Shown here one piece after another: positions 874-49,926 of a stretch of DNA of 53,181 nt. The translations under genes were made by a program, and so were the position numbers. Location: NCBI GenBank assembly GCA_902792895.1, contig CADBBK010000017.1, positions 1-53,181 on the forward strand, written 5' to 3'. The DNA comes from an uncultured Bacteroidales bacterium (GTDB taxonomy: Bacteria; Bacteroidota; Bacteroidia; Bacteroidales; Muribaculaceae). The notes under the pieces are model-generated. The model did no database searches, was not told where the DNA came from, and saw only the letters and a program-made list of their open reading frames with translations. How positions within the stretch are numbered: the stretch's first letter is position 1; every line of letters begins with the position of its first letter.

Positions 874-929
874 TTAGAAAAACTGATATAGTTAGTTATT
901 AGTCAATGTTCAGTTTGGTTTACAGGGTG

Positions 930-937
930 CAAAGGTA
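930..937 (-). promoter_or_regulatory. Bacteroidetes -7 box (TACCTTTG) for the pyruvate oxidoreductase
   Basis: On the minus strand the sequence reads TACCTTTGCA, matching the TAnnTTTG -7 element of the Bacteroidetes primary sigma factor. It lies 63 nt upstream of the start at 867, so the leader would be about 55 nt. Confidence 0.7.
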
Positions 938-980
938 CGCATTATTTTTTTAATAAGGTATATAAACTTGAAAAAATACT

Positions 981-1262
981 TTACATGCCCTGGCGCAGAC
1001 GGCGACCGCTGCCTTGAACGCCTACTCCAGTGCTGCTGCCATCCCTGTCGTGGGCTACATCATCGCCCGTCTCAACGAGCGATTGGACGAGCCCTTCGTC
1101 ACCGTCAACACCGTGACCGGCGACAAGGGCATAAAAACTTGTGCAAGCCGAATGCAAACGAGCTCGCTCGATTTGCTGAGGCGCCGCCAAGTTTATCCAA
1201 CCAGGCGCAGGACGAGTACCAGCGCCTCATGAACAATAAATCACCGAAATCTAAGAGAAAAT
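981..1262 (+). pseudogene. Remnant of a phage tail tape-measure-like gene, interrupted by a hairpin element
   Basis: Frame 981-1132 reads ...LAQTATAALNAYSSAAAIPVVGYIIARLNERLDEPF..., an Ala-rich stretch followed by AIPVVGYIIA. This resembles the C-terminal end of Bacteroidales prophage tape-measure proteins (recalled similarity, not searched). There is no plausible start. The frame is broken by a ~70-bp hairpin element at about 1133-1201. Past the element another frame continues with QAQDEYQRLMNNKSPKSKRK and stops at 1262. That short tail recurs at 2408-2442 and may belong to a different protein end that recombined here. The longest open frame through the area starts at a TTG and does not follow the recognisable frame. 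Pseudogene status is clear; the tape-measure identity is moderately supported. Confidence 0.5.
1133..1201 (+). repeat. ~70-bp hairpin element, copy 1 (in phage remnant)
   Basis: Conserved boxes GTGCAAGCCGAA and TGAGGCGCCGCC flank an inner hairpin (GCAAA-CGAG paired with CTCG-A-TTTGC). An outer stem pairs AAACTTG with CAAGTTT. The right end is TTTATCCAACC. The element interrupts the tape-measure-like reading frame. Related copies lie at 3261-3331, 3429-3499 and in the tandem array at 49412-49625. Confidence 0.75.
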
Positions 1263-1293
1263 GAAGTGTTTTGCTAAATATTCGCTACCTTTG
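1229..1293 (+). repeat. 65-bp direct repeat, copy A (protein tail plus promoter)
   Basis: The segment encodes the tail MNNKSPKSKRK-stop, then runs through AGTGTTTTGCTAAATATTCGC to the -7 box TACCTTTGC. Nearly the same segment recurs at 2408-2472, where the tail is MNNKSPKNKRK. Each copy stands upstream of a small AT-rich orphan gene, at a similar distance from its start. This looks like the boundary sequence of exchangeable cassettes. Confidence 0.7.
1286..1293 (+). promoter_or_regulatory. -7 box TACCTTTG for the 118-aa orphan gene
   Basis: TACCTTTG lies 28 nt before the ATG at 1322 and within copy A of the 65-bp repeat. It supports the downstream start at 1322 rather than the TTG at 1271. 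Confidence 0.65.
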
Positions 1294-1321
1294 CAGATAC
1301 TATAAAATAAAGGGTAATCGT

Positions 1322-1678
1322 ATGAAAAGTATAGTATACTGGCGAGTGTTTGTGAATTCAACCAAAGAATCAACAGTAAAAAAGCTGTTGGCTCCATTGT
1401 TGGAAGTTCTTGGCGCAACAGCAAAAGTAGAAAAACAGGAAATTTATTGGAAGGACAATGCTTTGACAGAAGTTAACATATCGCAACCGATAGAGTTTCA
1501 AAATTTTGAATCTGAATTAATGGGGGTGTTGAAAATATCTTCTATGATATCAAATAATTGGTATCTGACACTACCTACAGGCTTATCCAATACTACAGGA
1601 ATAGAAATCTCAGGAGTAGCTGATAACACAACGATGAATGGCATTACATGGGTGAGTTTTGATGTGACACATGAGTAA
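1322..1678 (+). CDS. Hypothetical protein, possible orphan immunity protein
   Basis: A 118-residue soluble protein beginning MKSIVYWRVFVNSTKESTVK. It is rich in short alternating hydrophobic strands, with no signal peptide or membrane segment. I do not recognise a named family. The ATG at 1322 is preferred over an open extension to 1271 because the -7 box at 1286-1293 lies inside that extension. The gene is markedly more AT-rich than the core genes of the window. It sits just after a protein-tail remnant (MNNKSPKSKRK) and shares its upstream repeat with the gene at 2498. Those traits recall orphan immunity genes of polymorphic-toxin or acquired interbacterial defence clusters in Bacteroidales. 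That role is inference from context only. Confidence 0.6.
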   Translation: MKSIVYWRVFVNSTKESTVKKLLAPLLEVLGATAKVEKQEIYWKDNALTEVNISQPIEFQNFESELMGVLKISSMISNNWYLTLPTGLSNTTGIEISGVADNTTMNGITWVSFDVTHE

Positions 1679-1742
1679 TGAACAACCCATCAATGCAATG
1701 ATAGAGCGAATTTACAATATTTTTTAAAACAAAAGAATCAGT

Positions 1743-1982
1743 ATGAAGAAGTCAACAAAAAGAATCAGTTCAATCATCTTGATTGTCGTCTTGGCAATAA
1801 TCGAGTGCTTGTTATGCCTTGGCATTGCCCTCGATGGGAAGTATCAAGTAGAGCTTTCCGAGGATCTCGCATCTATCGAGGCGTTTTACCGTGATGTGAC
1901 AATTCTCGAGGTATTCATGTTCATCAACCTGGGCATTGCAATTGCATCACTAATTCTACTTTGGCGGAAAAACATGGAGTAA
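1743..1982 (+). CDS. Small two-helix membrane protein
   Basis: A 79-residue protein starting MKKSTKRISSIILIVVLAII. One membrane segment spans about residues 10-30 and a second about 56-73 (FMFINLGIAIASLILLW), with a short acidic loop between them. The Lys/Arg-rich N-terminus and RKNME C-terminus would both be cytoplasmic. It follows the 118-aa gene after 64 nt and may share its promoter. No family recognised. Small membrane proteins of this kind occur among immunity genes in toxin cassettes, but nothing in the sequence proves that here. Confidence 0.55.
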   Translation: MKKSTKRISSIILIVVLAIIECLLCLGIALDGKYQVELSEDLASIEAFYRDVTILEVFMFINLGIAIASLILLWRKNME

Positions 1983-2114
1983 GCATGCACTGCCACATTA
2001 TGCGTTCATAGATGCGATTACATTAATACAGGATAAGGCTATGATAATTTATGATGCCGATGAATTTGAAAAAATAGATTTGATATAACATATCCGAAAG
2101 GGGCTGCTTTTAGC

Positions 2115-2122
2115 TATCTTTG
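2115..2122 (+). promoter_or_regulatory. -7 box TATCTTTG for the 79-aa gene at 2160
   Basis: TATCTTTG matches TAnnTTTG and lies 37 nt before the ATG at 2160, giving that gene its own promoter within the accessory patch. Confidence 0.6.
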
Positions 2123-2159
2123 CAAGAATCAATCTGTAGTTAATACTAATTTAGTTGTA

Positions 2160-2399
2160 ATGGAGTATTTGTTCCGAAATCTACTGGAATTATATCTTGG
2201 TACTTTTATTAGATTCGTATATTTGCGATATATTAGAAGGAAGGATGTGCGCTTTAAGGAACTGCTACACCCAGCACAAGAAGGAAAGATTGACAAAGAT
2301 AATGAGTTGGACATATTCACGAATGAAATGGCTAACCGAAGTTATGGTTGTATTTTTCTTATAATTATTGTTGGAATTTTGGCTTATTTCCTGACCTAA
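2160..2399 (+). CDS. Small hypothetical protein with C-terminal membrane helix
   Basis: A 79-residue protein starting MEYLFRNLLELYLGTFIRFV. A hydrophobic-aromatic N-terminal half is followed by a charged middle section. A C-terminal membrane segment (CIFLIIIVGILAYFLT, about residues 63-79) ends at the stop codon. Promoter and start agree: TATCTTTG is 37 nt upstream. Base composition is AT-rich like the neighbouring orphan genes. It ends just before copy B of the 65-bp repeat. No family recognised; part of the presumed cassette of orphan genes. Confidence 0.55.
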   Translation: MEYLFRNLLELYLGTFIRFVYLRYIRRKDVRFKELLHPAQEGKIDKDNELDIFTNEMANRSYGCIFLIIIVGILAYFLT

Positions 2400-2407
2400 T
2401 CATTTTC

Positions 2408-2472
2408 ATGAATAATAAATCACCGAAAAATAAAAGAAAATGAGTGTTTAGCGAAAAAAATCGCTATCTTTG
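2408..2472 (+). repeat. 65-bp direct repeat, copy B (protein tail plus promoter)
   Basis: The segment starts at an ATG and reads MNNKSPKNKRK-stop, then AGTGTTTAGCG and the -7 box TATCTTTG, matching copy A at 1229-1293. Copy B also has a perfect 6-bp inverted repeat (TAGCGA...TCGCTA, 2449-2466) overlapping the start of the -7 box. No longer reading frame leads into this tail, so it is a fragment. Confidence 0.7.
2465..2472 (+). promoter_or_regulatory. -7 box TATCTTTG for the 156-aa orphan gene
   Basis: TATCTTTG is located 25 nt before the ATG at 2498, inside copy B of the 65-bp repeat and overlapping the TAGCGA/TCGCTA inverted repeat. Confidence 0.65.
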
Positions 2473-2497
2473 CCTAATAAAAATTCTCTAACAGGTT

Positions 2498-2968
2498 ATG
2501 CTAGAAATAAAGAATCAAATAATAGAGCGTATTGATGAATTCACTGTTGATGGACATGACTGTGTAAGTGAAGGCATGACTCTTGAGCATTGCCATATTC
2601 ATGAACTTGATATAATGGCGGTTAGATTTTCGGGCAAAGTGACTATCTGTAATTGTATTATTGACAAATTAGGTATTCATTCAACTGTGTTTGGTGCTGG
2701 TCTGAATTTTACAGGAAATATCGTAACGTCTGATATCGATTACCAGATGGGAGGGCATAATAATGACGAAATGATCATATCGCATAATATCTTTAATGGC
2801 TTCTTCAGTTTCTTTGATTGCATCTTTGAGAAAAAATTGATAGTAAAGAATAACATATTCAAAAAAGGGACTGACTTGTTAACGAGAGAAAACAAAGGAT
2901 TTGATAACTGTTTTAATGGCGGTGTCATCTTGACTGATAACATTGGCCCTTTGAATGTTATGCCATAA
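2498..2968 (+). CDS. Hypothetical protein with beta-helix-like repeats
   Basis: A 156-residue soluble protein starting MLEIKNQIIERIDEFTVDGH. Its body is a run of short strand-turn units with periodic Cys, Phe and Asn (CNCIIDKLGIHSTVFGAGLN, FFSFFDCIFEKKLIVKNNIF), the pattern of a right-handed parallel beta-helix or degenerate pentapeptide-repeat protein. No signal peptide is present. Its promoter lies in a 65-bp repeat shared with the gene at 1322, so the two genes look like members of one exchangeable set. An immunity function is inferred from that arrangement only. Composition is AT-rich compared with the core genome. Confidence 0.6.
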   Translation: MLEIKNQIIERIDEFTVDGHDCVSEGMTLEHCHIHELDIMAVRFSGKVTICNCIIDKLGIHSTVFGAGLNFTGNIVTSDIDYQMGGHNNDEMIISHNIFNGFFSFFDCIFEKKLIVKNNIFKKGTDLLTRENKGFDNCFNGGVILTDNIGPLNVMP

Positions 2969-2990
2969 TCCCCGTCTTTTCAAGCTTTAC

Positions 2991-3023
2991 GCGGTTGATT
3001 TACCTTTGTGGCAAATCAACCGC
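2991..3023. promoter_or_regulatory. 11-bp perfect inverted repeat around a -7 box
   Basis: GCGGTTGATTT (2991-3001) and AAATCAACCGC (3013-3023) are perfect inverted repeats. They enclose an 11-bp loop that holds most of TACCTTTG (3001-3008). The ATG of the phage-type gene follows at 3032. It could be an operator, a leader hairpin, or a terminator for the gene at 2498. Confidence 0.6.
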
Positions 3024-3260
3024 TATTCTTTATGATACTCACTATAAACGGAAAGCAGGCAGCGCTGAAGAAGGGGTCTTCGATAGAATATGTATCGGAG
3101 AACCGCATCTTCACCGATGCCGATGACTACAGCATGGAGATCGAACTGCCCCTGGCAGACTGTCCGCAGAACCTGGACATCTTCGGGATGATCACCCGCA
3201 AGGACGTGGACACTGGTGACATCTTCTTCGATGCGGTGCTGCAGGACACCAACTTCTTCA

Positions 3261-3331
3261 AAAATAGAGCAAGCCGAATGCAGAGTCAAGCTTGCTTGAA
3301 CTCTGTTAAGGCGTAGCCTATTTTATCTAAC
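3261..3331 (+). repeat. ~70-bp hairpin element, copy 2
   Basis: Boxes GCAAGCCGAATG and AAGGCGTAGCC flank an inner hairpin (GCAGAGT-C-AAGC with GCTTG-A-ACTCTG). The outer stem is AAAATAG paired with CTATTTT. The right end TTTATCTAACC matches copy 1. It interrupts the phage gene after NFFK. Confidence 0.75.
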
Positions 3332-3428
3332 CGAGGTGCCGTCGTGATCACCGGCATCACGCAGGAATCAGTCAAGGTGCAGTTCCTGGAGAAGCGCAGC
3401 TACCAGAACTTCTTCCCACGCTTCGATG

Positions 3429-3499
3429 AAAATTTGTGCAAGCAGAAGACAATGCCAAGTTTACTTGAGCATTGTTAAGGCGCAGCCAACTTTATGCAG
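3429..3499 (+). repeat. ~70-bp hairpin element, copy 3
   Basis: Boxes TGCAAGCAGAAG and AAGGCGCAGCC flank an inner hairpin (ACAATGC-CAAG with CTTGA-GCATTGT). The outer ends pair only partly. It interrupts the same phage gene after FPRFDE, exactly 168 bp from copy 2, start to start. Confidence 0.75.
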
Positions 3500-3822
3500 A
3501 CCTACATCGACGAGCTCGACCTGGGCAAGTGGCCCAGCATTTACCCCGACAACTCGCCTACCGGCGGCGGGGCCCAGCCAAGACCCGGGGAAGAAGTGTC
3601 CTACGCCTCTCCGGCGCAGCTCTGGAGCAGGACGGAGGACTACACCGCCTTGCCGTGGGTTGCAGACCATATTAGTTTAGATTAGGTAACGAAACCCTAA
3701 GAATGCATTCCACCTCAATATTGGACTGTGCAAAAGGAAGGAATTGGCTATAGGCGGTTTTGTGAAACAATTAAAATTTCTTAAATATCACGATATGTTT
3801 ATTGTTTTACGATAAATTGATT

Positions 3823-4361: not shown

Positions 4362-4571
4362 ATGATTATCGTGAATCTTGATGTGATGATGGCCCGACGC
4401 AAGATGTCGCTCAACGAGCTGAGCGAACGCGTGGGCATCACTATAGCCAACCTCTCGATTCTGAAGACCGGCAAGGCCAAGGCCGTGCGCTTCTCCACCC
4501 TCGACGCCATCTGCCGTGCCCTCGACTGCTCTCCCGGCGACATCCTCGAGTACCGCCCCGATCCCGAGTAG
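4362..4571 (+). CDS. Cro/C1-type HTH regulator (YozG-like, HTH_26)
   Basis: A 69-residue single-domain DNA-binding protein. It starts MIIVNLDVMMARRKMSLNEL and contains the helix-turn-helix LSERVGITIANLSILKTGKA (about residues 20-39), followed by RFSTLDAICRALDCSPGDIL, the last two helices of the family. It follows the DUF2975 gene by 15 nt and is presumably co-transcribed. Its last 53 coding bases (4513-4565) recur at 5372-5424, beyond the transposase unit, with two mismatches. That suggests the transposase landed in or beside a tandem paralogue, or that the gene end was duplicated on insertion. Confidence 0.9.
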   Translation: MIIVNLDVMMARRKMSLNELSERVGITIANLSILKTGKAKAVRFSTLDAICRALDCSPGDILEYRPDPE

Positions 4572-4734
4572 GTGAGATGGTAATGCTGGCGATGGCGGGC
4601 AAGGCTGTGATCACCCGAAGGGTGTCCGTTGAGTAACCGGCGGTAATGCTGGCGACTTAGCGTAGCGAAGGAGTCAGCATCACCGCCGGAAAAGCAATCT
4701 AAAGGCCTGTCGCTGGAGGCGACCCCTTGTAACG

Positions 4735-5184
4735 TCAATCTTTCAAGAAATATTTTTCATCAATCTCGATACCATTCTCAAGTATGAATTGCCGATACTC
4801 CTCAGCGAAGGTCGTCTTATGGTGATGCTCCTTTTGATTGATGATGTATTGCTTCACTATCGGAATTTGCTCACGGGAATAAGTGAAGGCGGCATATCCT
4901 TCGCCCCAACCCGAAAACAACGGAAAGGAAGTGTTCTGTTTCAGCCAACTGCTGGATGCAAACTTTAACCCTCGCACAAACTCCGATACCGCAACTTCAG
5001 GAGGAATAGACACCAACATGTGGATATGATCAGGCATACCCCCAATGCGGTACAATTTAGCCTTATGGCGCTTGGTGTAGCCATAGATATAGGCGTAAAG
5101 CTCACGCTCATGCTGCTCATCTATCGCAGGAATGCTGCAATGGGTACGGAACACAATATGATATACGAGATTGGTATAACTCAT
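4735..5184 (-). CDS. REP-associated tyrosine transposase (IS200/Y1 HUH family)
   Basis: A 149-residue single-strand DNA transposase of the IS200/IS605 Y1 type. The HUH motif is seen as DHIHML (His53, His55), followed by VRGLKFASSSWLK. The catalytic tyrosine is most likely Tyr113 in VKQYIINQKEHH, with the QKEHH..TF..EY segment typical of REP-associated (RAYT) enzymes. An open extension to 5214 exists, but MSYTNLVYHIVF is the family start, and TATCTTTG lies only 7 nt upstream of it, so the message would be nearly leaderless. Inverted palindromes flank the gene and presumably are its substrates. The protein looks intact. The C-terminal IEIDEKYFLKD tail is usual. Confidence 0.9.
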   Translation of the reverse strand: MSYTNLVYHIVFRTHCSIPAIDEQHERELYAYIYGYTKRHKAKLYRIGGMPDHIHMLVSIPPEVAVSEFVRGLKFASSSWLKQNTSFPLFSGWGEGYAAFTYSREQIPIVKQYIINQKEHHHKTTFAEEYRQFILENGIEIDEKYFLKD

Positions 5185-5191
5185 GATGGCG

Positions 5192-5199
5192 CAAAGATA
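5192..5199 (-). promoter_or_regulatory. -7 box TATCTTTG directly before the transposase start
   Basis: Minus strand reads TATCTTTG, then 7 nt, then ATG. With a typical transcription start about 7 nt after the box, the transcript would begin at or just before the ATG. Confidence 0.55.
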
Positions 5200-5371
5200 C
5201 TCATTGTGGCACAATTATACAACTCTCGACAAGCAATGGGGTCGCCTCCAGCGACCTGGGAGATGGTATCTCTCCCCCAGTGAATCAGATGTCCGCGCTA
5301 CGCTAGCTCATCTGATTCACTGGGGGTTACTCAGAGGTCACCCTTTGGGTGAGTCGCAGTTCGGCGTCTCA

Positions 5372-49411: not shown

Positions 49412-49419
49412 CAAAATTA
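49412..49419 (-). promoter_or_regulatory. -7 box TAATTTTG for the PASTA-rluD unit
   Basis: Minus strand ACTAATTTTGCAG lies 28 nt upstream of the ATG at 49383. The box coincides with the outer stem of the first hairpin element in the tandem array, so the -33 region is formed by repeat DNA. Confidence 0.5.
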
Positions 49420-49625
49420 GTGCAAGTCGAACACAAAAGCAAATTTTTAATTTGATTTTGTTGAGACGCAGCCTAATTTCGACAGCGCCAGCTGTCAACA
49501 GCAGTGCAAGTCGAACACAAAAGCAAATTTTTAATTTGATTTTGTTGAGACGCAGCCTAATTTCGACAGCGTCAGCTGTCAACAGCAGTGCAAGTCGAAC
49601 ACAAAAGCAAATTTTTAATTTGATT
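49412..49625. repeat. 84-bp tandem repeat (about 2.5 units) of the hairpin-element family
   Basis: The unit begins TGCAAGTCGAACACAAAAGC at 49421, 49505 and 49589, exactly 84 bp apart. Each full unit holds an inner hairpin (CAAAAGCAAAT..., with ATTTGATTTTG), TGAGACGCAGCC and the outer stem partner CTAATTT, followed by GACAGC-GCCA-GCTGTC and AACAGCAG. The third unit breaks off after TTTGATTTGG. The boxes TGCAAGyCGAA and TGAGrCGCmGCC match the ~70-bp elements at 1133, 3261 and 3429. Confidence 0.85.
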
Positions 49626-49926
49626 TGGGAACGATGTAGCAGTTAGCCCTGAGCATTTTTTAAACTCAGTGAATCCAATTACACGAAGTGTATTCGTAGT
49701 ATATTAGATAAATTAGTGAAATTCGCATTAGCCCCGCAGGGTTTGGGACAACTGCTATATCATTGCCAATTATTAATTCGATTTTGTGAAAATGTAGATT
49801 CGCTAATCGGATATTTCAAGAGCTTGAGATATTAGCCTGCAAGTTTACACACGGTGATTTAGATTTAATCTCGTCATCACTAACTTGTTGATTTACAATG
49901 CATTTGTTTATGTCATTTTTTTGTGC
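49626..49926. other. Gap without a gene, between the repeats and the next promoter
   Basis: AT-rich, no long reading frame. Palindromic bits such as ACACGAAGTGT and scattered fragments are present. I see no RNA gene or further copy of the repeat. Confidence 0.5.

Follow-up and report, generated by a model that had tools for sequence, protein, structure and literature searches.

The window analysed here, the 53,181 nucleotides of contig CADBBK010000017.1 from an uncultured Bacteroidales bacterium of the Muribaculaceae (assembly GCA_902792895.1), contains three copies of a short hairpin element, W1 to W3, in coding sequence of phage-like appearance, a tandem array of the same family, and a gene for a Y1 transposase (Table 1). 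The boxes, stems and positions of the three copies are as the sequence-only reading of this DNA had written them, and its assignment of all three to one family holds; covariance model R1, built from 55 copies, matches W1 and W2 and adds the tandem pair at 49412-49565.

Table 1. Features of the window discussed in the text.
Feature	Position	Strand	Remarks
Hairpin copy W1	1134..1198	+	lies in a fragment of a phage-like gene; 46-nt core; adds a net 65 bp and so breaks the phase; matched by covariance models R1 and R2
Hairpin copy W2	3260..3328, right tail to ~3331	+	50-nt core; adds a net 69 bp; contains an in-frame TAG; matched by R1
Hairpin copy W3	3429..3497	+	50-nt core with degenerate pairing; adds a net 69 bp; contains an in-frame TAA
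Tandem array, unit 1 of the hairpin family	49412..49481	+	left arm CAAAATTAG
Tandem array, unit 2	49496..49565	+	followed by a partial unit 3 at ~49580-49632
Truncated gene that hosts W2 and W3, longer in relatives	3032..3685	+	read against relatives' loci; fourth site at ~3095 empty here
Y1 (IS200/REP-type) transposase gene, 159 aa, open	4735..5214	-	no copy of the hairpin family within 1 kb

In relatives, the gene that hosts W2 and W3 runs for 653 aa to a stop (L430, L432) or shows no stop within the sequence retrieved (L423, L429, L431); its protein matches no Pfam or PHROG family, and "phage-like" is therefore the readers' judgement and not a match. The 653-aa gene is also cut short or rearranged in other members of the genus (L417, L420, L422, L424, L426). 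W2 and W3 are separated by 168-169 bp, in line with the 168 bp first read. It had also been claimed that the two interruptions of this gene measure 69 bp and keep the reading phase, which stands for W2 and W3, each with a net gain of 69 bp, but does not extend to W1 (+65, a frameshift), to L426, which occupies the W1 site in a relative (+67), or to a fourth site, where +65 forms occur as well. The significance attached to phase does not survive: insertions of 65 or 67 bp put the frame out, and in-frame stops lie inside W2 (TAG) and W3 (TAA). One copy elsewhere (L253) is open in frame through the element, inside a small coding gene; it lies near the gene start (L253 1440-1600), and the peptide motif FNSVE is found on either side of it in different codons.

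Anatomy of the hairpin and compensatory change

The copies examined measure ~64-82 nt and each forms one imperfect hairpin. From the outside inward, a variable outer stem of ~6-8 bp is followed by a mostly unpaired T and a GC/GC step. Then come a first conserved internal loop, AA x GNA, the GCC/GGC step, a second conserved internal loop, GA(A/G)N x (T/C)GA, and a variable inner stem with its loop. Two alignments, whose rows were chosen with the structure in view, describe the family: A3, with 55 rows out of 63 unique structure-passing copies (the 8 omitted are mostly tandem or duplicate copies), and A4, with 33 A3 rows and 22 others, including copies from other families. Loop bases are near-invariant in A4 (A14, G18, A19 and A56 in 55/55 rows, A13 and G60 in 54/55; A62 is less constant, in 43/55), figures to be read with 33 of the 55 rows having come through a box pattern that requires these very bases. 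In the copies of G325, a genome of another family, the pairs beside the fixed loops are flipped, with GC/GC becoming GA/TC and GCC/GGC becoming GGC/GCC.

A strict two-box pattern occurs at 7 places in the own 3.2-Mb genome, versus 0 for the reversed-pattern control, while R1 finds at least 69 matches there at E<=1 (150 of 1220 candidates scored), 63 of the 69 at E<0.001. A search with the Rfam 15 covariance models, strict over the whole window and permissive over 1050-3700, returned nothing relevant, and no account of the family appeared among the papers listed; those consulted in passages were PMC3733652, PMC6006769, PMC4596501, PMC10969869, PMC8040213 and PMC8266576. The hairpin repeat is real, widespread and, as far as these listings and Rfam 15 go, apparently undescribed.

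That the stems differ between copies and yet remain complementary is confirmed for W1 and W2, for which strong RNA folds are predicted, whereas W3 has mismatches (AAATTTG/CAACTTT; GCA for GCC), and energy folding gave it a hairpin of the expected kind in one run and not in two others. Across the family, 93.9% of A3 cells pair, against 74.8% after shuffling. The sequence-only reading had proposed a statistical test of the covariation; on A3 the observed value, 0.489 compared with 0.137 for shuffled alignments, lies above all 500 shuffles, none of which equals it, and structures slid along the alignment reach at most 0.119. In A4, double changes occur in 15 of the 17 pairs and covariation is 0.524 against 0.145, with slid structures at 0.121 or below.

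As the A3 rows had passed a pairing filter, the test was rerun with sequence boxes only. Among the matches listed, the 6 outer positions form a mean of 5.02 Watson-Crick pairs in the 47 copies (42 loci) from Bacteroidales, with at least 5 in 38 of these copies, and exchanging arms between copies lowers the average to 2.84; among the 77 listed matches from other taxa, the average is 1.77 and two have at least 5 pairs, one of these being L023. The nine Bacteroidales copies that fail include second units of arrays (L093, L105, L108). L023 (CADCAA010000041.1) belongs to a rumen MAG labelled as a proteobacterium; it is a good copy that passes the structural filter, and its contig or label may be misassigned.

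Pairs of the G-T type outnumber those of the A-C type, 21 versus 7 in A4 (p=0.013) and 22 versus 4 in A3 (p=0.0005), which makes it probable that folding takes place on the GCAAGCC strand. Compensatory changes maintain the hairpin; the earlier view that co-varying stems reflect selection on one folded strand is upheld by the double changes, the boxes-only test and the G-T/A-C asymmetry alike.

Occupied and empty sites, range and genomic context

When 61 genomes were searched with window positions 900-3700, relatives were found to carry the same sequence with gaps at the elements, from which the net insertions (+65 bp at W1, +69 bp at W2 and at W3) are read. The W1 site is empty in G007, G033, G009, G036, RUG379 and others, and occupied by related copies in G023, G019 and G025. 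The sequence-only reading had named a result that would speak against it, namely that the blocks are ancestral parts of the gene, and the comparison did not bear this out: the W2 site is empty in eight genomes by exact anchors (G036, G033, G017, G035, G009, G021, G024, G002) and the W3 site in seven (G036, G033, G017, G035, G012, G002, G009). The own genome and G032 share W2 as one insertion; RUG379 (L110) agrees with them at the left junction and over most of the hairpin but has lost the right end. W3 is present in the own genome, G032, G021 and, by one comparison, G024, in forms that have diverged between carriers, and RUG379 retains its right junction. The fourth site (W4, window ~3095) holds antisense copies in G002 and G018 (+65) and in G021 and G025 (+69); the two forms differ in their inner stem. 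Orientation to the host gene is free, W2 and W3 being sense and the fourth-site copies antisense. At a further site upstream of a gene (L270), 19 relatives' loci are empty and five have diverged copies, while the copies of L110 and L130 sit at apparent deletion joints.

At W1-W3 and in the four fourth-site carriers, L426 excepted, the net length exceeds the core, measured from box to box (46 or 50 nt), by 19, and the recurrent 69 is thus due to a shared core length. No target duplication is seen at W1-W4, the four best-resolved sites. The join adjoins an A, with a placement ambiguous by 1-3 nt: next to the right end of W1 and of W2, the closest empty site departs from the occupied one at a single base, and relatives with an A at that base (L423, L429; L323) permit an exact reading with the ends placed elsewhere. 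This ambiguity makes any target rule provisional; whichever placement is adopted, W1-W4 share no target tetranucleotide. A left arm always copied from the target is ruled out at W1-W4, both arms being missing from the empty sites.

Presence and absence at identical sites, together with near-identical dispersed copies in G325, bear out the non-autonomous mobility first suggested, and the element is mobile on an evolutionary time scale. The covariance model and genome scan that had been proposed at the outset extend its range: 36 of the 41 genomes of the genus, the own one included, carry the family (0-86 copies each), as do 8 of 148 other genomes of the order, with none in two same-family genomes outside the genus and no carrier among 197 other genomes sampled from the phylum, all under stricter filters that can miss weak copies. 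G325 has 22 copies, many near-identical and often paired ~73-76 bp apart. Among the structure-passing loci are records that carry the labels Prevotella, Hoylesella, Muribaculaceae, Bacteroidaceae, Porphyromonadaceae, Paludibacteraceae, Marinifilaceae and Tannerella. A phage search with W2 as the query gave two weak records (E 0.06 and 0.2), and a plasmid search with the L097 array gave one Prevotella record.

Copies come in two styles. Those of the window end in TTTAT plus two bases. Promoter-type copies, which often form arrays, have the left arm CAAAGnTAG, which matches the reverse of the Bacteroidetes -7 box TAnnTTTG, and a right tail made of CTTCG and a small palindrome. Of 120 copies placed by crude ORF calls, 66 fall between genes and 28 at ORF edges, and for 30 of 38 intergenic promoter-type copies (8/12 in the own genome, 22/26 elsewhere) the gene on the left-arm side points away, counts that use a loose promoter-type definition and include at least one locus twice (L105/L297). 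At the L249 locus an element-free relative has an identical TACCTTTG, and at the L263 site the empty relative already reads GCAAAGATA, so that part of the promoter-type left arm may be host sequence. Since such arms partly match the host (L263, L249/L374), the statement that the arms travel with the element holds for W1-W4 only. Exact 8-nt direct repeats border 4 of 51 mostly promoter-type loci, versus 1 of 51 in a reversed control, and repeats matching at least 7 of 8 nt border 18 of those loci versus 9 in the control.

Adjacent copies in six genomes, among the matches listed, lie on the same strand in 40 pairs and on different strands in 36; in those matches there is therefore no sign of a replication-strand bias. 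A non-systematic look revealed no larger, gene-bearing unit around the copies, although L246, L252 and L260 share some flank. Several copies of the own genome (L274, L275, L277, L290, L295) are nested in or adjacent to a different palindromic repeat, GTAGAGACGC...GCGTCTCTAC, with which they have seemingly been multiplied.

Relation to known repeats and the question of a mover

Several known systems recall the family in part. Integron attC sites have RYYYAAC/GTTRRRY cores in their outer arms and come with an integrase; the W1 and W2 tails do read ATCYAAC, but the left arm is without the pairing GTT core, and an attC origin was rejected. IS200/IS605 elements have a subterminal hairpin at either end and use a fixed tetranucleotide as their 5' target. 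The present family resembles them and their derived non-autonomous copies in its lack of target duplication at W1-W4 and in its single-strand hairpin logic (PMC6006769), but has one hairpin and no tetranucleotide common to the W1-W4 targets, and derivation from such an element was discarded. Rickettsia palindromic elements likewise occur within genes and outside them, but according to PMC10969869 are ~150 bp, about twice the size of the present hairpins, which are not in frame as a rule; a translated in-frame insertion of that type was set aside, with W1-W3 bringing stops or frameshifts and L253 as the single open case. BrickBuilt of Porphyromonas gingivalis is also a small non-autonomous repeat of Bacteroidales; it differs in being a MITE that consists of a 23-nt minisatellite framework and has terminal inverted repeats (PMC4596501), and the string AAGCC is absent from the main text of that paper. 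A DDE-type MITE was ruled out more generally, as the arms differ between copies, leaving no conserved terminal inverted repeats, and there is no duplication at W1-W4.

The closest likeness is to the REP/BIME repeats associated with TnpA_REP, such as the y-REP of E. coli, which are also short, dispersed, imperfect hairpins found in arrays (PMC3733652, PMC6006769, PMC8266576). A conserved AA x GC mismatch adjoins the GGC/GCC step of E. coli REPs (PMC8266576), as also seen in a computed fold, and a mismatch of this type is present here as the AA x GNA loop. The family differs in its greater length, two conserved internal loops, absence of a GTAG tag and absence of a Y1 gene that tracks it; in the 55-row alignments no GT[AG]G or CGTC tag is fixed at the hairpin foot, where the positions flanking the core change along with the outer stem. 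Homology to the E. coli REP was rejected, R2 scoring 7.8 bits at best and not at a REP. The element is REP-like in anatomy and, by the features tested, not a REP.

The reading that we favour, and hold to be somewhat probable, is a family of non-autonomous, REP-like mobile elements handled as a folded single strand. The element would move as folded single-stranded DNA, its enzyme would recognise it through the two conserved internal loops, and it would be joined beside an A in the target, by analogy with the recognition of REP and IS200/IS605 hairpins. Several points stand against it: no enzyme was found; adjacent copies among the matches listed show no strand coherence; L426, with its 67 bp, breaks the rule of core plus 19; the junctions can be placed in more than one way; the fourth site has two forms with unlike inner stems; part of the left arm of promoter-type copies matches the host; and the rows of A3 and A4 were picked by structure, a bias that the boxes-only test avoids while resting on the matches listed. 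A REP/BIME family proper, mobilised by TnpA_REP (Y1 HUH) and possibly by the product of the 4735-5214 gene, would fit the size and the imperfect, ssDNA-type hairpin, the mismatch shared with E. coli REPs (PMC8266576), the tandem arrays, which recall BIMEs, and the abundance in Bacteroidetes of subclass 2.4 TnpA_REP genes reported in PMC6006769; moreover, the Y1 gene of the window, one of two in the own genome, lies 1.24 kb from W3, and some Y1 match exists in 38 of the 41 genus genomes and in G439, a genus-mate of G325. We nonetheless regard it as unlikely. Besides the missing fixed GT[AG]G foot and the lack of an R2 score at the E. coli REP, the numbers of Y1 genes and of elements are uncorrelated over the 41 genomes (Spearman -0.07, p=0.68), a Y1 match is absent from 6 of the 8 carriers in other families, G325 and its 22 copies included, G013 (83% complete, 23 copies) and G029 (78% complete, 42 copies) have no Y1, and five zero-copy genomes have 1-9 each. 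The REPtron arrangement, a Y1 gene flanked by copies, was not found at either of the own genome's two Y1 genes, and the one in the window is bordered by different, longer palindromes (4566-4735 and 5214-5340) that look like its own REP-like repeats. A Y1 transposase was accordingly dismissed as the partner for want of copy-number correlation and for its absence from most other-family carriers; the data speak against a Pfam-recognisable Y1 transposase as the mover, and of the hairpin-recognising enzyme first imagined none was found, the Y1/REP transposases not tracking the element.

The folded strand could also be RNA, the family being a processing site, an sRNA or a protein-binding RNA that spread as a repeat or via RNA. 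The purine-rich internal loops could form tandem sheared G-A pairs, W1 and W2 have strong predicted RNA folds, and the G-T/A-C asymmetry fits RNA equally well; against this, Rfam offers no match, both orientations occur within one host gene and, by crude ORFs, the left-arm-side gene of 30 of the 38 intergenic promoter-type copies points away, so that its promoter would not transcribe them, which leaves an RNA element distinctly unlikely. Passive spread by template switching or microhomology joining, with no dedicated enzyme and with copies kept for a regulatory effect at promoters, is not a likely account either: the short, A-rich junction microhomology, the base that differs between W1 or W2 and their nearest empty sites, the tandem arrays, the -7-like boxes at left arms and the deletion-joint copies of L110 and L130 are in its favour, whereas near-uniform ends and net length at independent sites and the retention of two specific internal loops across families are not. 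Highly improbable is the idea that in-phase inserts are tolerated by the product, as peptides like those of Rickettsia palindromic elements, by bypass or in an intron-like manner; W2, W3 and two fourth-site carriers add 69 bp and L253 is open in frame, but the +65 and +67 copies, the stops in W2 and W3 and the shortness of the host gene here contradict it for these copies, and the intergenic and ORF-edge placements counted above by crude ORFs weigh against it too.

Returning to non-autonomous elements handled as a folded single strand, it may tentatively be proposed that a single-hairpin lineage spanning several Bacteroidales families, read via two purine-rich loops and moved by an enzyme other than a Y1 HUH transposase, represents an undescribed mobilisation system, a possibility about which some doubt is in order. 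The dispersed hairpins understood best are those that a Y1 transposase accounts for; with clean empty sites, strong covariation, a strand preference and no tracking Y1 gene, this family opens the matter of their mover to testing. As it often lies at promoter-like boxes and forms arrays, the family may also shift gene expression. It is common in gut and rumen Bacteroidales, and hairpin insertions can split gene calls. The window contains, in addition, the same short coding end, MNNKSPKxKRK, at 1228-1264 and 2408-2443, and relatives repeat such pieces between small cargo genes.
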